Assembly: GCF_002283555.1 (NCBI RefSeq)
Contig: NZ_MVOI01000003.1
Span: forward strand, 1,228,798-1,292,797
Length of the DNA: 64,000 nt
Direction: 5' to 3'
Origin: Rubrivirga sp. SAORIC476
Lineage (GTDB): Bacteria; Bacteroidota; Rhodothermia; Rhodothermales; Rubricoccaceae
The notes beneath the pieces are model-generated. The model ran no database searches and had not been told where the DNA came from. It worked only from the letters and a program-made list of their open reading frames with translations. Every line of letters starts with the position of its first letter. Position 1 is the first letter of the stretch. The translations under genes were made by a program, and so were the position numbers. Below, piece by piece: positions 29,339 through 57,404 of this stretch.

Positions 29339-29340
29339 GA

Positions 29341-29396
29341 GGCGGGAGGCGGGAGGCGGGAGGCGGGAGGCGGGAGGCGGGAGGCGGGAGGCGGGA
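29341..29396. repeat. Heptanucleotide tandem array (GGCGGGA)x8
   Basis: Eight perfect consecutive copies of GGCGGGA (56 bp), beginning two bases upstream of the aroK GTG. On the aroK coding strand the unit is TCCCGCC. It occupies the leader/ribosome-binding position of aroK. A 7-bp unit is not a multiple of three and would be prone to slippage. Confidence 0.97.
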
Positions 29397-29462
29397 GGAA
29401 GATGCGTCTCCCGGTCCGGGTGGAGGATCAAACCCGACGGAACTTTTCGGAGGCGCAACGCT

Positions 29463-29530
29463 CCAGAACCCAGAACCCAGAACCCAGAACCCAGAACCCA
29501 GAACCCAGAACCCAGAACCCAGAACCCAGA
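29463..29530 (+). repeat. Heptanucleotide tandem array (CCAGAAC)x9.7
   Basis: Nine perfect copies of CCAGAAC plus five bases of a tenth (68 bp), ending 8 bp before the truA ATG. Together with the aroK array it fills most of this 200-bp divergent spacer; only 66 bp (29397-29462) of ordinary sequence remain, which must hold both promoters. Confidence 0.97.
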
Positions 29531-44678: not shown

Positions 44679-44776
44679 GAACTCCGAACTCCGAACTCCG
44701 AACTCCGAACTCCGAACTCCGAACTCCGAACTCCGAACTCCGAGCTCCGAACTCCGAACTCCGAACTCCGAACTCC
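44679..44776 (+). repeat. Heptanucleotide tandem array (GAACTCC)x14
   Basis: Fourteen consecutive GAACTCC units (98 bp), all identical but the tenth (GAGCTCC). The array ends on the base immediately before the GTG start of sufE, so the whole leader of that gene is repeat. The 64 bp between the sulfurtransferase stop and the array hold no other signal. Confidence 0.98.
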
Positions 44777-45199
44777 GTGAACGCCCGCCTCCAGGAGATC
44801 GCCGACGAACTGGCCTCCGTCCCCCGCGACCTCCAGGTCGAGCTGCTGCTCGAGCACGCTCGCCAGTTCCCGCCTCTGCCCGACCGGTACCGCGCGGCCC
44901 GCGAGGCCGGGCTCGGGCGCGTCCACGAGTGCCAGGCGGAGGTCTACTTCTTCCCCGAGGTCGAGGACGGCGTCGTCCACCTCCACGCCGACATCCCGGG
45001 CCACGCGCCGACCCAACGCGCGCTCGTCGGCATTCTGATGGAGGCGTACGAGGGCGCGACGCCCGCCGACGTGGCGGCCATCCCCGACGACCTCCTCCGC
45101 CACCTCGGCGTGGACGCCCTGCTGGGCCCCCAGCGCCAGCGCGGATTCGCCGGCGTGCTGGCCCGCCTCAAGTACGGCGTCGCCCAGGCTGCTACCTGA
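44777..45199 (+). CDS. sufE: SufE-family sulfur acceptor
   Basis: A 140-residue SufE, which accepts persulfide sulfur from the cysteine desulfurase SufS for Fe-S cluster assembly. Key region: G-L-G-R-V-H-E-C-Q-A-E-V-Y with active Cys about 52, and the L-H-A-D-I-P-G-H segment. Length and fold match E. coli SufE. Start GTG 44777 is the only candidate before the conserved N-terminal helix; the codon follows directly on the heptad array with no Shine-Dalgarno. It overlaps the next gene by one base (TGATG). Confidence 0.9.
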   Translation: MNARLQEIADELASVPRDLQVELLLEHARQFPPLPDRYRAAREAGLGRVHECQAEVYFFPEVEDGVVHLHADIPGHAPTQRALVGILMEAYEGATPADVAAIPDDLLRHLGVDALLGPQRQRGFAGVLARLKYGVAQAAT

Positions 45200-46143
45200 T
45201 GACTCGACTCTCCCTCTTCGCGGCGCTCCTCGTCCTCGCCGGGTGCGGCTCCTCCCGCCCCGTCGGCCTCGGCGAGCGCCCCGCCGACCGCGTCGCCGTC
45301 CCGGTCTCGTCGATCCACTACCGCGACGCGACCTCCGCCGACGACCTGGCGGCCAGACTTCGGTGGACCGAGGACGCCCCGCTCCTCGTCAGCGCACACC
45401 GCGGCGGGCCGGTGCCAGGCCTCCCCGAGAACGCCCTCGAAACGTTCGAGTACGCGCTCAACCACGCCCCCGCGCTCATCGAGGCGGACGTGCGCCGCAC
45501 CGCCGACGGCGTGCTCGTCCTCATGCATGACGAGACGCTGGACCGCACCACCACCGGCACCGGGCGCGTCGACGCGACGACGTTCGCCGAGATCCGCCGC
45601 CTCCGCCTCCTCGCCGATACGGTGGTCACCGCGTTCCGCGTCCCGACCCTCGCCGAGGCGCTCGCCTGGGCCGACGGCCGCGCCGTCCTCATGCTCGACG
45701 TCAAGCCCGACGTGCCGTACGAGACGCTCGTCGCCGCGCTCCGCCAGGCGGACGCTGCCGACCGCGCCGCGGTCATCACGTACTCCCTCGCCGACCACCG
45801 GCGGCTGGTCGCCCTCGCGCCGGACCTCGTCGTCTCGGCGACGGCCGAGACCCTGGCCGACGTGGACGCCCTGCTCGCCTCGGGCCTCGACCTGAGCCGC
45901 GTCGTCGCCTGGACCGGCGTCGGCGTGCCGGATCCGGAGGTCGTGGCGCGGCTCCACGCGGCGGGCATCCGCGCCCAGGCTGGAGCGTTCGGCGCCATCG
46001 ACGAGGCGGCCCGCACCACGGCGTCCCCGGCGCCCTACGACGCGATCCTCGCCGCGGGCGCCGACGTGATCGCGACGGACGTGGTCCCGATGGCTGCGCT
46101 GGCCACGCGGAACGCCGCCCTCATCCGACGAGCCCGGCGATAA
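45199..46143 (+). CDS. Glycerophosphodiester phosphodiesterase lipoprotein
   Basis: A 314-residue GDPD-family phosphodiesterase. Signal peptide with lipobox L-V-L-A-G-C (Cys about 16). Catalytic/metal residues: S-A-H-R-G near 68, E-N-A-L-E-T-F near 79, E-A-D-V near 96, M-H-D-E near 110. TIM-barrel fold; hydrolyses glycerophosphodiesters to glycerol-3-phosphate in the periplasm. Its ATG shares a base with the sufE stop, so it is translationally coupled to sufE, although the functions have no obvious link. Confidence 0.88.
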   Translation: MTRLSLFAALLVLAGCGSSRPVGLGERPADRVAVPVSSIHYRDATSADDLAARLRWTEDAPLLVSAHRGGPVPGLPENALETFEYALNHAPALIEADVRRTADGVLVLMHDETLDRTTTGTGRVDATTFAEIRRLRLLADTVVTAFRVPTLAEALAWADGRAVLMLDVKPDVPYETLVAALRQADAADRAAVITYSLADHRRLVALAPDLVVSATAETLADVDALLASGLDLSRVVAWTGVGVPDPEVVARLHAAGIRAQAGAFGAIDEAARTTASPAPYDAILAAGADVIATDVVPMAALATRNAALIRRARR

Positions 46144-47707
46144 ACGTCGACAGGGCCTCTTCGGCGCCGGGCGCGAGGGGGATCGCTCCGACGCCGAGGT
46201 CGGCAAGGCTGGTCCAGAGACGACTGCGCAGGAAGGCCGCGTCCGGCACGCCGGGAAAGAGCGCGGCGGCCTGGAGGATGGGCGGCCCCTGCACGATGGC
46301 GTCGCGGTAACGGTGCAGCACGCCGAGGGCGTCTTCCGGCGGCCCCGCCGCGCCGTACCGACGCCGGTACCCGGCCGAGTCGTCGCGGCGGTACTTCGCA
46401 TCCAGCACCACCCGCCGGGTCCTGTCGCCGGTGCGGACGGTGAGAAGCAGGTCGGGGCGCTGGGCCAGCAGCGCGGGCGGCGCCGGGAAACGCGGACTGT
46501 AGACGACCTCCACCTCGGTATGTCCTGCGGCGAGGCGGACCCCATGCTGACGCCCTTGTCTCAATCGGACATCCGCCCCGACCGTGTCGATGCCGAACGG
46601 CCGCTCCGGCACGGGGCACCCGAGCACGTCGGCGACGGACCTTACGACGGCGAGCGCAGCCCACGTCTCGTACAACACCGCGAGGTCCTGCATCGACACA
46701 TCGAGGGCGCCGTCGCGAAGGGCAACCCCGCGGTCGAGGGACTGGAGCGCCTCGAAGGCCTGGGCGTAGGCCGGAGCCCGCCGGAGCACGAGCGGCGGAA
46801 CGCTCGGAGCACGCCCCAGGTCACCTGCGAGGACTCCTGTGGAGCGCAGCGCTCGTAGTCGATCCCGATGCAGGGAGAGGTCTCGGACGAGAGCCGCCCT
46901 GCGGAGCGTCGGCCGCCGTGCTCCCTCCTCCCGAGCCAGTGTCTCCAGCCGGCTGACCACGTCGTCGAGGCGGGCCGCCAGCCATCGGTGTGCCGGCGTG
47001 TCCGCGGTCAGGCGAGGGGGCCTCGCCGGAAGTCGCTCGACCTCCATCCCCGTACGCAAGGCGACGCGACGTGTCTCCGACGACGGACGCCGAATCTGCC
47101 CTGCTGGCTGGATCGAGACGCTTCGAGTCGTGTCGAGCGTCGGCCGGCGATCGATCTCGCGGACGGCACCGACCAGCGCCTCGGTAGCCTCCCGAAGCGC
47201 CGCGAGCCAGAATGGCGGTGCGGTTTCCCCCACCTCGGTCGTGAGGTCGACCGTCGCAGGACGGAGCGCAGATGCTGACAGGCCGGCTGCGAACCGCTCC
47301 ACGTCGTCACGCATCGACTCCACCTCGGAGGTCGACATCTTTACCGGGAGCACGCCAATGTCGAACGCCACGGTTGGCTTGCTCCCGAGCCACACCTCGA
47401 ACCGCATCCGGCCCGCCTGCGAGCCGGTCCGAACCGGACCGTGGAGCACACGCCCGCCGTCGGCCGAGGCGAGGCTCGCCGTCACGACGGGGTCGCGGTG
47501 GACGAGCGTGACGGCTTCCTCGCAGAGGCTCTGCACGAGGACGAGACTGGTCGTCTCCTCCTCCAGCCAAACCGCCTCGGCGTCCACGTGGACGGGGTCT
47601 GCCCCCAGGGAGACGACAGTCAGAGGCGACGCCCCCGGCCGCGACGAAGGGCGCGCGCTCCATGTCAGGCGGAGGCGGGGGGTCTGGATCGTGAACAGCG
47701 TCTGCAC
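46121..47707 (-). CDS. mcrC: McrC-like protein: DUF2357 plus PD-(D/E)XK nuclease
   Basis: A 528-residue protein with the DUF2357-type N-terminal region and a C-terminal PD-(D/E)XK (DUF524/McrC) nuclease: R-P-D-L-L-L-T-V near residue 418 and R-V-V-L-D-A-K-Y-R near 434, providing the catalytic Asp and D-x-K. Family members pair with McrB AAA+ ATPases in modification-dependent (type IV) restriction. Starts at GTG 47707 and converges on the glycerophosphodiesterase gene, overlapping its 3' end by 23 bp. The matching McrB lies 640 bp away on the same strand, beyond a GNAT gene on the other strand. No coiled-coil insertion of the CoCoNuT type is obvious. Confidence 0.82.
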   Translation of the reverse strand: MQTLFTIQTPRLRLTWSARPSSRPGASPLTVVSLGADPVHVDAEAVWLEEETTSLVLVQSLCEEAVTLVHRDPVVTASLASADGGRVLHGPVRTGSQAGRMRFEVWLGSKPTVAFDIGVLPVKMSTSEVESMRDDVERFAAGLSASALRPATVDLTTEVGETAPPFWLAALREATEALVGAVREIDRRPTLDTTRSVSIQPAGQIRRPSSETRRVALRTGMEVERLPARPPRLTADTPAHRWLAARLDDVVSRLETLAREEGARRPTLRRAALVRDLSLHRDRLRALRSTGVLAGDLGRAPSVPPLVLRRAPAYAQAFEALQSLDRGVALRDGALDVSMQDLAVLYETWAALAVVRSVADVLGCPVPERPFGIDTVGADVRLRQGRQHGVRLAAGHTEVEVVYSPRFPAPPALLAQRPDLLLTVRTGDRTRRVVLDAKYRRDDSAGYRRRYGAAGPPEDALGVLHRYRDAIVQGPPILQAAALFPGVPDAAFLRSRLWTSLADLGVGAIPLAPGAEEALSTFIAGLVG

Positions 47708-47737
47708 ATCGTATGCTACCGCACGCCCTCCCCTGCC

Positions 47738-48352
47738 GTGCCCGACCCGCCCGTTCTCCGGCTGACGCTCCGTGACGGCCGCCCCGTGGCCCTTCGCCCC
47801 ATCGAGCCCGCCGACCGCGACCGGCTCGCCACAGGCTTCGACGCCCTGTCCACGGCCTCGCGGCGGCTACGTTTTCTCGGGTCCGTGTCGAACCTGAGCG
47901 AGGCCCACCTCTCCTACCTCACCGAGGTCGACGGTCACGACCACGTCGCATGGGGCGCGCTCGACCTCACCGACCCCGCGCTACCGGGCTTCGGCGTTGG
48001 CCGGTTCATCCGCCTCGGGAAGACCGAGGGCCTCGACACGGTGGCCGAGTTCTCGCTGACTGTGCTCGACTCGGCCCAGGGGCACGGCGTCGGGCAGTTG
48101 CTCCTCGCCGTCCTGGCCGTGGTCGCGCCGTCGGTGGGCGTGGAGACGCTCCGTGGCGTCGTGGCGCAAGACAACGACCGGATGCTCCGCTGGCTCCGGC
48201 GCCTCGGAGCCGTCGCCATCGGGTCGGCCGAGGAAGAGACGCTCGACCTCCCGCTTCCCGTGGATCCGTCTGTCAGCGACTCGGCCGCCGCGTTCGTGGA
48301 CACGATGGAGAGAATCCGGGCCGAGATGCGCGCGTCCGAGAGGAAGGGCTAG
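47738..48352 (+). CDS. GNAT-family N-acetyltransferase
   Basis: A 204-residue GNAT protein starting at GTG 47738. The N-terminal R-P-I-E-P-A-D-R-D strand-helix is followed by the acetyl-CoA-binding strand and loop A-Q-G-H-G-V-G-Q-L-L-L near residue 115 (Q/R-x-x-G-x-G/A) and a final D-N-D-R-M-L-R-W-L-R-R-L-G segment. It resembles the GNAT domains that follow acyl-CoA synthetase modules and can acetylate protein lysines. It lies on the plus strand between McrC (30 bp from its start) and McrB (4-bp convergent overlap). Its place may be chance or part of the locus. Confidence 0.85.
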   Translation: MPDPPVLRLTLRDGRPVALRPIEPADRDRLATGFDALSTASRRLRFLGSVSNLSEAHLSYLTEVDGHDHVAWGALDLTDPALPGFGVGRFIRLGKTEGLDTVAEFSLTVLDSAQGHGVGQLLLAVLAVVAPSVGVETLRGVVAQDNDRMLRWLRRLGAVAIGSAEEETLDLPLPVDPSVSDSAAAFVDTMERIRAEMRASERKG

Positions 48353-50079
48353 GCCCAGAACGACGCGACGCCATCGGCCAGAGCCCCCTCTGCGATGCGG
48401 GCGAGGCGCGCCGCCGTTCGGGGGAAGCGACTGCCGAGGACGTCGGGGCGCCCGTCCGCCGCCCAAGCGTCGACGGAGACCCGGGCCGCGCGCGCATCCA
48501 TCGGGCGGCCGTCCACGGCCCACCCGAGCAGGGCATACGTGGCGTCGCGAGCCGGTCCGCGTGCGCCGTCGATCCGAGGCACGAGCTTCATCAGCAGCGC
48601 GAGGTCCGCGGGGTCGACGGAGTCCCCCGACGCAGCCCGGAAGGCGGCGGGCGTCTCGCTGGCATGGAGCACGAACAGAGCCGCCTCGTCCCGCGCGCGA
48701 TACCCGACGCCCATGCCCGACGGGGCCAGGAGGGCGTCCGCCTCGGCGACCGCGGCGATCACCCGCTCCATCCCTGTGCGTTCGGTCGGCGTGAGGTCCA
48801 ACGATTCACCCAGGCGGACGGCCCGTGGGGACCAGGCCTCCACGGGCCAGGGGAGGGGTGCCACGGCGTCCGCAGGTCCGGGCCCCCAGTCGCCGAGGTC
48901 TCGGGCGGCCAGTTCCAGCACGAAGGCCCGGTCCAGCACCTTCCGGCTGAACGCGTGCGCGCTCTCGTCCACGTTGACCGTCCCGACGATGCCGAGCGAG
49001 GGCGGCAACCGGACCGCCTGCCACTGCGCGTCCGCCGCGGCGAGCGACTCCGACAGCAGTGGGGAGCTCTCGTACCCGCCTGGCGCGGGAGCACGAGACT
49101 CGATCCGGCTCAAGACCTCGGCGAGGTAGTGCTCCGGACGCCCCAGGTTCATCTCGTCGAGCACGAGCGTCCGGAAACGGTCGGTGTGCTCGGCCGCATC
49201 GCTCGCTGCGCGCAGCACCGCGCCGGGACGAAAGCGCCCAGAGAGGTCCGTGTAGCCCATCGTCTCCGACGGGTCGGTCCAGTCCGGGCGGACGGGGAGC
49301 ACCGTCGCGACGCCTCCCGTCGCGTCCGCGACAAGCGAGGGCAGGCGGCTCTTGCCGACGCCCGTCACGCCTGCCAGGAGGACGAACGGCTTGGTGCGGA
49401 GTGCGGTCACGTAGGCTGCGATCTCCCAGGGCTCGAACCGAAAGCCGCGCGCAGCCACCGCGTCGACGAGAGACGCCATCGCCGTCGCCCGGTCGAACCC
49501 CGTCGGCGCCACATACCCGACCGCTGGCTCGGCCACCTCAGGGGTCGGGAGCACTACTCCAGGCTCCATCTGCTCCGCCTGCTCATCTGCCTGTCGCCGC
49601 GCATCACGGACCGCCTCGACGGCCGCCATGAGGGCGTCAGGATCGGCTCCGAGGCGGGCCTGGACGACGAACTCCAGCACCTTGCCGTCGAGCACGGGCA
49701 GCGGGTGGAGCACCTGCTGGACGACCCGCCGAAAGCGTGCCTCGGGCGGCACGTCGGGGTACTCGTCGAGCACCCGCAGGTCGGCCGCGGCGCGGTCGCG
49801 GGCGATCCACAACTCCTCAGGGAGCACGGCGACCGGACGGACGCGGAGCCGGTGCGGCAGGTGGCGTCCCGGCGCCAGCACGGTCGCGTCCTCGAACGGC
49901 ACGCCGACGGCCTCGAACAGTCCGGCGAACGCCTGATGGCCCGAGAGGTACACGATGATCCGGTCTCCCGCGCGCACCTCCGCCAGTCGCCGCCGCCCCT
50001 GCTGCCGCAGCGCAAGCGTCCCCGCGCGAACCGCAGCGGGGAACACATCGGGAGAGAGAGACCAGAGCCAGTAGGCCAT
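48349..50079 (-). CDS. mcrB: McrB-like AAA+ GTPase with N-terminal EVE domain
   Basis: A 576-residue fusion. Residues about 1-130 (M-A-Y-W-L-W-S-L-S-P, G-D-R-I-I-V-Y-L-S-G) form an EVE/PUA-like domain known to bind modified cytosines. A linker follows, then a McrB-type AAA+ domain: Walker A G-V-T-G-V-G-K-S near 235, Walker B L-V-L-D-E-M-N near 303, and the sensor region T-V-N-V-D-E-S near 367 with K-V-L-D-R-A. McrB rings translocate DNA and activate McrC. ATG 50079 is preferred to GTG 50088 because it starts the EVE domain exactly. Target modification not predictable from sequence. Confidence 0.87.
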   Translation of the reverse strand: MAYWLWSLSPDVFPAAVRAGTLALRQQGRRRLAEVRAGDRIIVYLSGHQAFAGLFEAVGVPFEDATVLAPGRHLPHRLRVRPVAVLPEELWIARDRAAADLRVLDEYPDVPPEARFRRVVQQVLHPLPVLDGKVLEFVVQARLGADPDALMAAVEAVRDARRQADEQAEQMEPGVVLPTPEVAEPAVGYVAPTGFDRATAMASLVDAVAARGFRFEPWEIAAYVTALRTKPFVLLAGVTGVGKSRLPSLVADATGGVATVLPVRPDWTDPSETMGYTDLSGRFRPGAVLRAASDAAEHTDRFRTLVLDEMNLGRPEHYLAEVLSRIESRAPAPGGYESSPLLSESLAAADAQWQAVRLPPSLGIVGTVNVDESAHAFSRKVLDRAFVLELAARDLGDWGPGPADAVAPLPWPVEAWSPRAVRLGESLDLTPTERTGMERVIAAVAEADALLAPSGMGVGYRARDEAALFVLHASETPAAFRAASGDSVDPADLALLMKLVPRIDGARGPARDATYALLGWAVDGRPMDARAARVSVDAWAADGRPDVLGSRFPRTAARLARIAEGALADGVASFWA

Positions 50080-50226
50080 GCGGAACACGAAGAGGGGCAG
50101 CGACCGGCTGCACGCGGAGCCTACAGGCTAGCGACGATGCGCGGCCGTGGTCTGCCGCGTATGCGACGCGTGAGATCGCGTTCCGGACGCACGCTCGTGC
50201 CCCAGGCGAAGCCCCCGCATTTTCTC

Positions 50227-50289: not shown

Positions 50290-51390
50290 ATGACCCGACT
50301 TCGCTCGCTCGTCGTCCTCGCGACGCTCGCACTCACCGTCTCTGCCTGCGACTCGTCCGGCGAGGACGGTCTCCTCGCCGGTGCCGAGGCCAACCTCGGC
50401 CAGTGGACCTGGATCGACGTGGCGGGCTCGCAGTGCCGCGACGGCTCCTCGACGGGCATTGGCGTCCGCCTTCAGGACGGCGCCACCGACCTCGCCATCT
50501 ACCTCGAGGGCGGCGGGGCGTGCTTCAACGGAGCCACCTGCGCCACCAACCCCAAGACGTTCGGCGAGGCGGAGTTCAACGCCCGCGCGGCGGCGGTGGG
50601 CAACAACGGCCTGTTCAGCACGGCCGCCGGCAACCCCGTCGGCGACTACAACATGGTCTACGTGCCGTACTGCACGGGCGACCTCCACGGCGGCAGCTTC
50701 CCCAACAGCTCGCTCCTCGGCGAGGAAATCGGCGTGCAGCAGTTCGTCGGGCACCAGAACGTCCAGCGCGCCGTCGCCCTCCTGGCGGACGAGTTGGACA
50801 CGCCCGGGAAGGTGCTCCTGACCGGATCCAGCGCGGGCGGCTTCGGGACGCTCCTCAACTTCGGCGAGGTGGCCGACGCGTTCACCGGCTCCGACCTCTA
50901 CCTCGTCGACGACTCCGGCCCGGTGTTCTTCCAGGACAACGTCTTCAGCCCGCAACTGGCCAGCAGCGTGACGGCGCTCTACAACCTCCCGGCGACGCTC
51001 CCGACGGCTCCCCAGCTGTTTCAGACGGACGGCCTGCCGGGCATCTACGCCTACTACGCCTCCACCTACCCGAACGCGACGTTCGGCCTCTCCAGCTACC
51101 TCGGCGACGACGTCATCCAGCAGTTCTTCGGCTTCGGCCAGGCGCCGGGCGACCCGATCACGGACGACGAGTACGCAGCGGGCCTGCGCGACGTGCGCAG
51201 CCAGATCCCGAGCGACTGGGGCACCTACTTCGCCACGGGCGGCGAGCACACGTTCCTGCTCGTCCCGAACCGCTACGCGGGCACCTCGGCGGGCGTCGCG
51301 TACGATGCCTGGCTCGCGGGCATCCTGGACGGCTCGCCGACGAACGTGGACCCGGCCGTGGCCGTCCGCGCCCCGCTGGCAGCCCGCTAG
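50290..51390 (+). CDS. Pectin-acetylesterase/Notum-like lipoprotein
   Basis: A 366-residue alpha/beta-hydrolase. Lipobox S-A-C near residue 20. The oxyanion segment Y-L-E-G-G-G-A-C near 73 and nucleophile elbow G-S-S-A-G-G-F-G near 178 are conserved in the pectin acetylesterase (PAE/Notum) family; H-T-F-L near 318 gives the catalytic His. It should remove O-acyl groups from polysaccharide or lipid-modified substrates in the periplasm or on the surface. It is a single gene followed by a 10-bp-stem hairpin. Confidence 0.85.
   Translation: MTRLRSLVVLATLALTVSACDSSGEDGLLAGAEANLGQWTWIDVAGSQCRDGSSTGIGVRLQDGATDLAIYLEGGGACFNGATCATNPKTFGEAEFNARAAAVGNNGLFSTAAGNPVGDYNMVYVPYCTGDLHGGSFPNSSLLGEEIGVQQFVGHQNVQRAVALLADELDTPGKVLLTGSSAGGFGTLLNFGEVADAFTGSDLYLVDDSGPVFFQDNVFSPQLASSVTALYNLPATLPTAPQLFQTDGLPGIYAYYASTYPNATFGLSSYLGDDVIQQFFGFGQAPGDPITDDEYAAGLRDVRSQIPSDWGTYFATGGEHTFLLVPNRYAGTSAGVAYDAWLAGILDGSPTNVDPAVAVRAPLAAR

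Positions 51391-55319: not shown

Positions 55320-57404
<2,085 letters not shown>

Follow-up and report, generated by a model that had tools for sequence, protein, structure and literature searches.

The 64,000-nucleotide stretch of Rubrivirga sp. SAORIC476 analyzed here (contig NZ_MVOI01000003.1, positions 1,228,798 to 1,292,797; hereafter the window) carries a gene pair of the McrBC type, an EVE-fused McrB-like AAA+ gene and an McrC-like gene, lying on one strand and flanking an opposite-strand gene for a GNAT acetyltransferase (Table 1). All three open reading frames (ORFs), their strands, the 30-bp gap and the 4-bp overlap lie where a preliminary description of the window had placed them, with Pfam support, and the identities proposed there (McrC with DUF2357 and PD-(D/E)xK domains, GNAT and EVE-McrB) are borne out by Pfam and by a family profile. 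The same order and orientation recur in seven other genomes from two families, so that the arrangement is more than chance; it is a real, conserved feature of these families. The exact overlap of the GNAT and McrB genes (48349-48352), in which CTAG is common to both stop codons, is specific to the window; elsewhere the two genes overlap by up to 22 bp or lie up to 149 bp apart. No published description of an EVE-McrB/GNAT/McrC arrangement was found in the titles or abstract openings of the papers listed, and the main text of PMC11090510 (Bell et al. 2024), which describes the NxD branch of McrBC, uses neither GNAT nor acetyltransferase.

Domain organization of the predicted nuclease

The window McrC comprises DUF2357 (54.4 bits; Pfam cut-off 23.3) followed by PDDEXK_7 (69.9 bits; cut-off 22.1), with the catalytic residues of a PD-(D/E)xK nuclease in place, the PD...DAK signature being present in all 24 McrC sequences of the order Rhodothermales (23 by pattern and that of genome G014 by eye). 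The best matches of the McrC model are solved McrC structures, including 7vsr_M (Z 9.3, 256 residues, root-mean-square deviation (rmsd) 9.8), 6ut7_G (Z 9.1, 310 residues, rmsd 11.7) and a further McrC chain (Z 8.8, 282 residues, rmsd 12.3), tied with chains that are not McrC (1xmx, Z 8.7; Can2 8q42_B, Z 8.3). Residues 1-120 are β-rich in the model and weakly resemble a filamin Ig repeat (3rgh_B, Z 7.3 and hence below 8, rmsd 2.7, 84 residues). The McrC of the NxD branch is reported to display an Ig-like N-terminal domain, a β-sandwich (PMC11090510).

The window McrB carries Walker A, Walker B and Nx(x)D motifs, as expected of the AAA+ subunit of McrBC type IV systems. Walker A and NxD are found in 23/23 genomes of the order, and the DEMN motif in 19/23 by pattern, being invariant in the 12 sequences aligned. 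The AAA_5 match of the window protein (20.5 bits) falls under the Pfam cut-off of 22 and the EVE match (23.5 bits) barely above its cut-off of 23; a profile built from the 12-sequence family matches both the EVE structure 1wmm (E 2.7e-6) and E. coli McrB 6hz4 (E 4.7e-4). The EVE domain would thus supply the modified-base reader fused to McrB, marginal on the single protein, with base binding predicted. The model of the AAA part finds E. coli McrB as best match (6ut6_D, Z 18.1, 182 residues, rmsd 3.1), with the AAA+ ATPase 2r44 as a near-tie (Z 17.4). The probable start is the ATG at 50079, which coincides in the alignment with the start assigned to several homologues.

Because NxD stands in place of NxxD in all 23 genomes, the window McrB, judged by its motifs, belongs to the NxD branch described by Bell et al. 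2024; none of the McrB proteins in that branch had been characterized at that date (PMC11090510). NxD was left uncounted in the wide scan described below, whose relatives had been gathered with a pattern containing NxD. With that branch the window proteins have in common the NxD motif followed by E, an McrC of DUF2357 plus PD-(D/E)xK, and possibly a β-sandwich at the N-terminus of McrC, whereas the EVE reader, the GNAT-split or unlinked genes and the mainly vertical inheritance set them apart (PMC11090510). Compared to McrBC of E. coli K-12, the AAA+ and McrC folds are the same; the K-12 system displays a DUF3578 reader and NxxD instead of EVE and NxD, and its McrC lacks the N-terminal β-sandwich that may be present here (PMC11090510, PMC7641849). 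CoCoNuT systems combine a McrB-like GTPase and long coiled coils with an McrC nuclease that is often lost or inactive and a HEPN or other nuclease nearby; the nuclease residues of the window McrC are intact. The PADLOC candidate PDC-M26 comprises a McrB-like A and a McrC-like B component: the window McrB matches PDC-M26A (E 8.3e-35), as do the five McrB relatives scanned, whereas the window McrC has no PADLOC match, B included, at E values up to 1, so that one of the two components is recognized. The name PDC-M26 was not used in the papers listed on PADLOC or on this candidate. Among ten McrB relatives outside the order, five carry an N-terminal MrcB_N module (one of them also EVE), one a sub-threshold SRA match, and four no named module.

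Distribution, linkage and descent of the pair

In a survey of 114 genomes of Rhodothermales, McrB matched in 24, of which 23 encode a single full-length copy; the remaining match, in G009, is weak and partial (40% over 70 residues, E 1.1e-4) and was left uncounted. McrC, surveyed in a set of 99 genomes, is found in 24, comprising the same 23 and G013, a 77% complete genome without McrB match. McrC is thus retained in 23/23 genomes with McrB, including six in which the pair is unlinked. By family the distribution is near-binary, 24 of 26 genomes in eight families carrying at least one of the two genes, compared with none of the 73 others in the 99-genome set; outside the order, 11 more genomes of the class match over the AAA part only, at 37% identity or less.

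Three configurations are displayed by the 23 genomes: (i) the pair adjoins without GNAT in nine (G004, G017 and seven genomes of family f3), with a gap of 2-4 bp as called; (ii) it flanks the opposite-strand GNAT gene in eight (G000-G003, G006, G007, G029, G039), the locus of G006 being split over two contigs whose ends share 17 bp, with the McrC start readable past GNAT; and (iii) it is unlinked in six, by 11.5 kb in G015, by about 423 kb in G019, and on separate contigs in G014, G018, G027 and G030. Each of the six genomes of the third group (loci L046-L055, L085) has kept both genes in spite of the lost linkage. In a wide scan sampling 80 of 114 relatives, of which three belong to the order (L092-L094) and six display no pair, 63 of the 73 pairs from outside the order lie less than 450 bp apart by hidden Markov model boundaries, in keeping with the earlier statement that McrB and McrC normally adjoin.

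The RpoB reference tree comprises 27 rows (G005 dropped, G022 24% filled, G006 and G013 without RpoB match). Families f1 and f10, in which all GNAT-split loci are found, are sisters in both the RpoB (100/100) and McrC (100/100) trees, and the branching order inside each is identical in the RpoB, McrB and McrC trees; the McrB tree groups f1, f10 and the long-branched G018 (f11) against the other 12 (100/99). In 18 of the 23 genomes uvrB lies divergently within 5.3 kb of McrB (seven f1, three f10 and seven f3 genomes, and G019), and it is absent from the stretches examined around McrB in the other five. A GDPD gene is found within 3 kb of McrC in all seven f1 genomes with the pair, and beside McrC in G013, G027 and G030. 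Since the three trees largely agree and uvrB is nearby in 18/23, the McrBC pair is a resident chromosomal locus of mainly vertical descent, the patchiness between families possibly reflecting losses or some transfer.

The nine flanking proteins of the window match, in Pfam, a TonB receptor, rhodanese, SufE, GDPD, pectinacetylesterase, YaiO, glycosyltransferase, HEAT repeats and UvrB. In contrast to the NxD-branch loci (PMC11090510), none of them is named as a methyltransferase, HEPN or two-component protein. PADLOC leaves seven unmatched and gives a marginal hit for the HEAT-repeat protein (E 3.3e-4), the hits of UvrB being confined to the helicase parts of defence models. Of the proposal that the locus is a candidate defence system, the McrBC-type genes are confirmed, whereas the flanks are unlike a defence island. 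We consider it quite unlikely that the pair is mainly a resident nuclease for genome surveillance or repair, acting on modified or damaged bases rather than against phages: mainly vertical inheritance in single copy, a place near uvrB in 18/23, the near-binary presence by family and the lack of a clear defence gene among the nine flanking proteins agree with such a role, whereas the proximity to uvrB may amount to synteny and nothing more, the pair is inessential, being wholly missing from several families of the order, and both PMC11090510 and PADLOC class the wider family with defence systems.

Regarding the target, C5-cytosine methyltransferase genes occur in 8 of the 23 genomes with the pair, the window genome among them, versus 28 of the 91 without, and their avoidance, taken as a target test, gives no signal. 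The modified-cytosine target formerly proposed, with hypermodified DNA of T4-like phages in mind, is therefore unsupported. As pair-bearing genomes do not avoid C5-methyltransferases, plain 5-methylcytosine is weakened as a target without being excluded; E. coli K-12 tolerates Dcm alongside McrBC by virtue of sequence context.

The interposed acetyltransferase

The window GNAT matches Acetyltransf_3 (28.1 bits) and Acetyltransf_1 (23.9 bits), both above cut-off, and resembles mycobacterial Pat (4ava; phmmer E 2.9e-17), with which it has in common the GNAT domain, the acetyl-CoA motif and a glutamate, Glu104, aligned to Glu235 of Pat, which we take to be the catalytic residue. It differs from Pat in consisting of the GNAT domain only, without the N-terminal regulatory domain, and it scores 81.8 bits against the 460 of the full-length Pat family NF058543. 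The catalytic glutamate and the QxxGxG motif are intact in all eight linked GNATs. Among four members of the genus, the ratio of nonsynonymous to synonymous substitution rates (dN/dS) is 0.27-0.46 for GNAT, compared with 0.16-0.30 for McrB and 0.31-0.38 for McrC; the window GNAT is under purifying selection.

GNAT accompanies the pair in eight of the ten McrBC genomes of f1 and f10, always between the two genes and on the opposite strand, so that the lack of co-occurrence which the preliminary description had named beforehand as refuting a link is not what the 23 genomes display. It is absent from the stretches examined in the other 13 McrBC genomes, and neither G004 nor G017 contains a match to the GNAT family anywhere, though both keep McrBC. 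Relatives of GNAT occur in genomes without McrBC (G052, G063, G095 and G100), and G027 encodes an unlinked relative (40% identity) beside a contig end in which no McrC start was recognizable by eye. In a tree of 24 sequences, from which a 56-residue row (G055) was left out, the linked GNATs cluster together (79/68, recovered in 80% of bootstrap trees), which would most simply be accounted for by one insertion and two losses, in G004 and G017.

Missing at the locus in 15 of the 23 genomes, GNAT is probably no core part of the nuclease, and the idea of a needed component is unsupported, given G004 and G017; the data favour a dispensable neighbour rather than a needed third component, a regulatory role being possible. 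As a control, the same ten genomes of f1 and f10 keep uvrB near McrB in 10/10 and GDPD near McrC in 7/10; unrelated flanks are therefore kept as well or nearly as well, and persistence alone is no proof of a functional link. A working accessory, which would acetylate McrB, McrC or a host factor and so set nuclease activity or toxicity, is accordingly rather unlikely in our estimate. It would fit the constant place and strand in 8/8 carriers from two families, the intact catalytic residues, the dN/dS of 0.27-0.46 and the gap motif common to f1; among the McrBC genomes, linked GNAT is present in 5 of 8 with a C5-methyltransferase gene versus 3 of 15 without one (Fisher one-sided 0.058, post hoc and ignoring relatedness). 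It is opposed by the absence from 15/23 loci, by the relatives in McrBC-free genomes, by the similar retention of flanks with no presumed link, and by the lysines: none in McrB is specific to carriers, and Lys123 of McrC, present in 8/8 carriers, is also found in 8/16 others.

Loci outside the order bear on the same question. Ten display a gap of at least 450 bp between McrB and McrC, and the interposed ORFs of five were scanned with Pfam, disclosing GNAT (L169), Fic (L151), RhuM (L149), Schlafen AlbA_2 (L147) and, as one of several ORFs in L136, a flavin mononucleotide (FMN) oxidoreductase; the ORF of L152 resembles that of L149 by its first residues, and no clear gene lies between McrB and McrC in L142, L146 and L168. 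With Fic, RhuM and Schlafen genes also found there, the gap accepts varied genes, and a single GNAT is at most a hint. That GNAT, from an uncultured Muribaculaceae genome, belongs to another subfamily (Acetyltransf_1, 24.2 bits), and its gene, placed between NxD-McrB and McrC, shares their strand; the subfamily of the window GNAT was found in none of 77 non-order loci. Two more of 397 Muribaculaceae genomes contain a clear relative of this second kind. In one of them (L228, 4676-8618) a C5-methyltransferase ORF (PF00145) precedes a stop-interrupted GNAT and then McrC, with no McrB match in the 12 kb examined, whereas in the other (G325) the 11.8-kb contig has no match to McrB or McrC. The first two of these three cases speak for an accessory GNAT and that of G325 against it. 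L147, L149, L151 and L152, with their Schlafen AlbA_2, RhuM, Fic and RhuM-like genes, respectively, are loci of Bacteroidales.

The gap before mcrC contains GTAGCATACG in exact form in five of the six GNAT-carrying f1 genomes (G000-G003, G007), and GTAGTCTAC instead in G006; the two McrC-GNAT gaps of f10 hold no exact copy of GTAGCATACG. This 10-mer occurs once in the window, against an expectation of about 0.05 copies for its inner 8-mer, and its GTAnnnTAC is symmetrical. Near-symmetrical -10 elements can drive divergent transcription (PMC10268837), and the gap is probably a divergent promoter, as judged from its sequence. A noncontiguous operon, in which mcrB and mcrC would be co-transcribed and controlled in level by the antisense GNAT mRNA, through collision or RNase III processing, agrees with the published geometry of same-strand genes around an opposite-strand gene (PMC7154746), found in 8/8 carriers. 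We regard it as very improbable: the promoter-like motif conserved in f1 directly before mcrC suggests separate transcription, and the pair is unlinked in 6/23, so that co-transcription is unneeded in the order.

Interpretation and neighbouring features

With moderate confidence, we favour an EVE-guided, modification-dependent nuclease of the NxD branch, resident in its hosts, whose operon was opened by a GNAT gene with a probable divergent promoter, the GNAT probably not being needed. Gene content, motifs, distribution, synteny and the agreement of the trees form the basis of this reading. The EVE domain would act as the reader binding a modified base, the McrB AAA+ ring would assemble and hydrolyze NTP, and McrC would dock by DUF2357, activate the ring and cut by means of its PD-(D/E)xK domain. 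With no selection to travel as one unit, the operon may have come apart: a Pat-type GNAT would have entered the opposite strand in the common ancestor of the two sister families, and mcrB and mcrC would have ended in separate places in other families. mcrC would probably have a promoter of its own, located in the short stretch that it shares with GNAT, and GNAT is probably an active protein acetyltransferase, unneeded by the nuclease, with regulation common with mcrC.

Several observations weigh against this account. EVE exceeds the Pfam cut-off by only 0.5 bit in the window protein, which weakens the modified-base reading, and the predicted local distance difference test score (pLDDT) of the McrB model is mostly below 50 over residues 1-154, the EVE part; no EVE structure appears among the 50 matches listed for that part, and given the low pLDDT no claim of an EVE fold is based on the model. 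The McrB tree, unlike the McrC tree, puts the long-branched G018 beside f1 (80/73), and deep RpoB nodes are unresolved, leaving room for transfer into some families. A single GNAT insertion is favoured and, at 79/68 support, unproven: the GNAT tree sets G007 outside G006 plus g1 (86/80), unlike the McrC (100/100) and McrB (100/99) trees, in which g1 and g2 group to the exclusion of G006. Finally, the conserved position, the dN/dS of 0.27-0.46 and the gap motif could equally signal a functional GNAT. A more far-reaching proposal, distinctly improbable in our judgement, is that EVE-NxD-McrBC beside uvrB would survey modified or damaged bases in the nucleic acid of its own cell, with a Pat-type GNAT wired to the mcrC promoter as an acetyl-CoA-linked switch in Rubrivirga and its sister family.

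The locus represents a simple NxD system of two genes, mainly inherited by descent, in which the nuclease residues are intact and EVE is the single reader, and a single order provides natural contrasts of presence and absence and of linked and unlinked pairs. Restriction partners can lose linkage and still be retained jointly from genome to genome, an observation relevant to the clustering of defence genes.

Table 1. Window positions of the McrC-GNAT-McrB locus and of selected neighbours
Feature	Position	Strand	Remarks
GDPD (glycerophosphoryl diester phosphodiesterase family)	45199..46143	+	convergent with McrC, overlapping the McrC 3' end
McrC-like ORF	46121..47707	-	GTG start; β-rich N-terminal part, DUF2357, PD-(D/E)xK nuclease with intact PD...DAK
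McrC-GNAT gap, 30 bp	47708..47737		between divergent genes; GTAGCATACG at 47710-47719, minus strand
GNAT, Pat-type, 204 residues	47738..48352	+	acetyl-CoA motif QGHGVG; Glu at residue 104
EVE-fused McrB-like AAA+	48349..50088	-	GTG-start ORF; NxD motif (GTVNVDE); probable start ATG 50079
EVE domain of McrB	49786..50076	-	predicted, residues 5-101 of the ORF
Pectinacetylesterase-family gene	50290-51390		between mcrB and uvrB; Pfam
uvrB	55320..57404	+	divergent from McrB

Relatives of the pectinacetylesterase gene occupy the same stretch between mcrB and uvrB in G003, G017, G029 and G039. Elsewhere, the window contains perfect or near-perfect heptamer arrays, comprising GAACTCC (14.1 copies, 44679-44777), CCAGAAC (9.7 copies, 29463-29530) and GAGGCGG (8.6 copies, 29339-29398).

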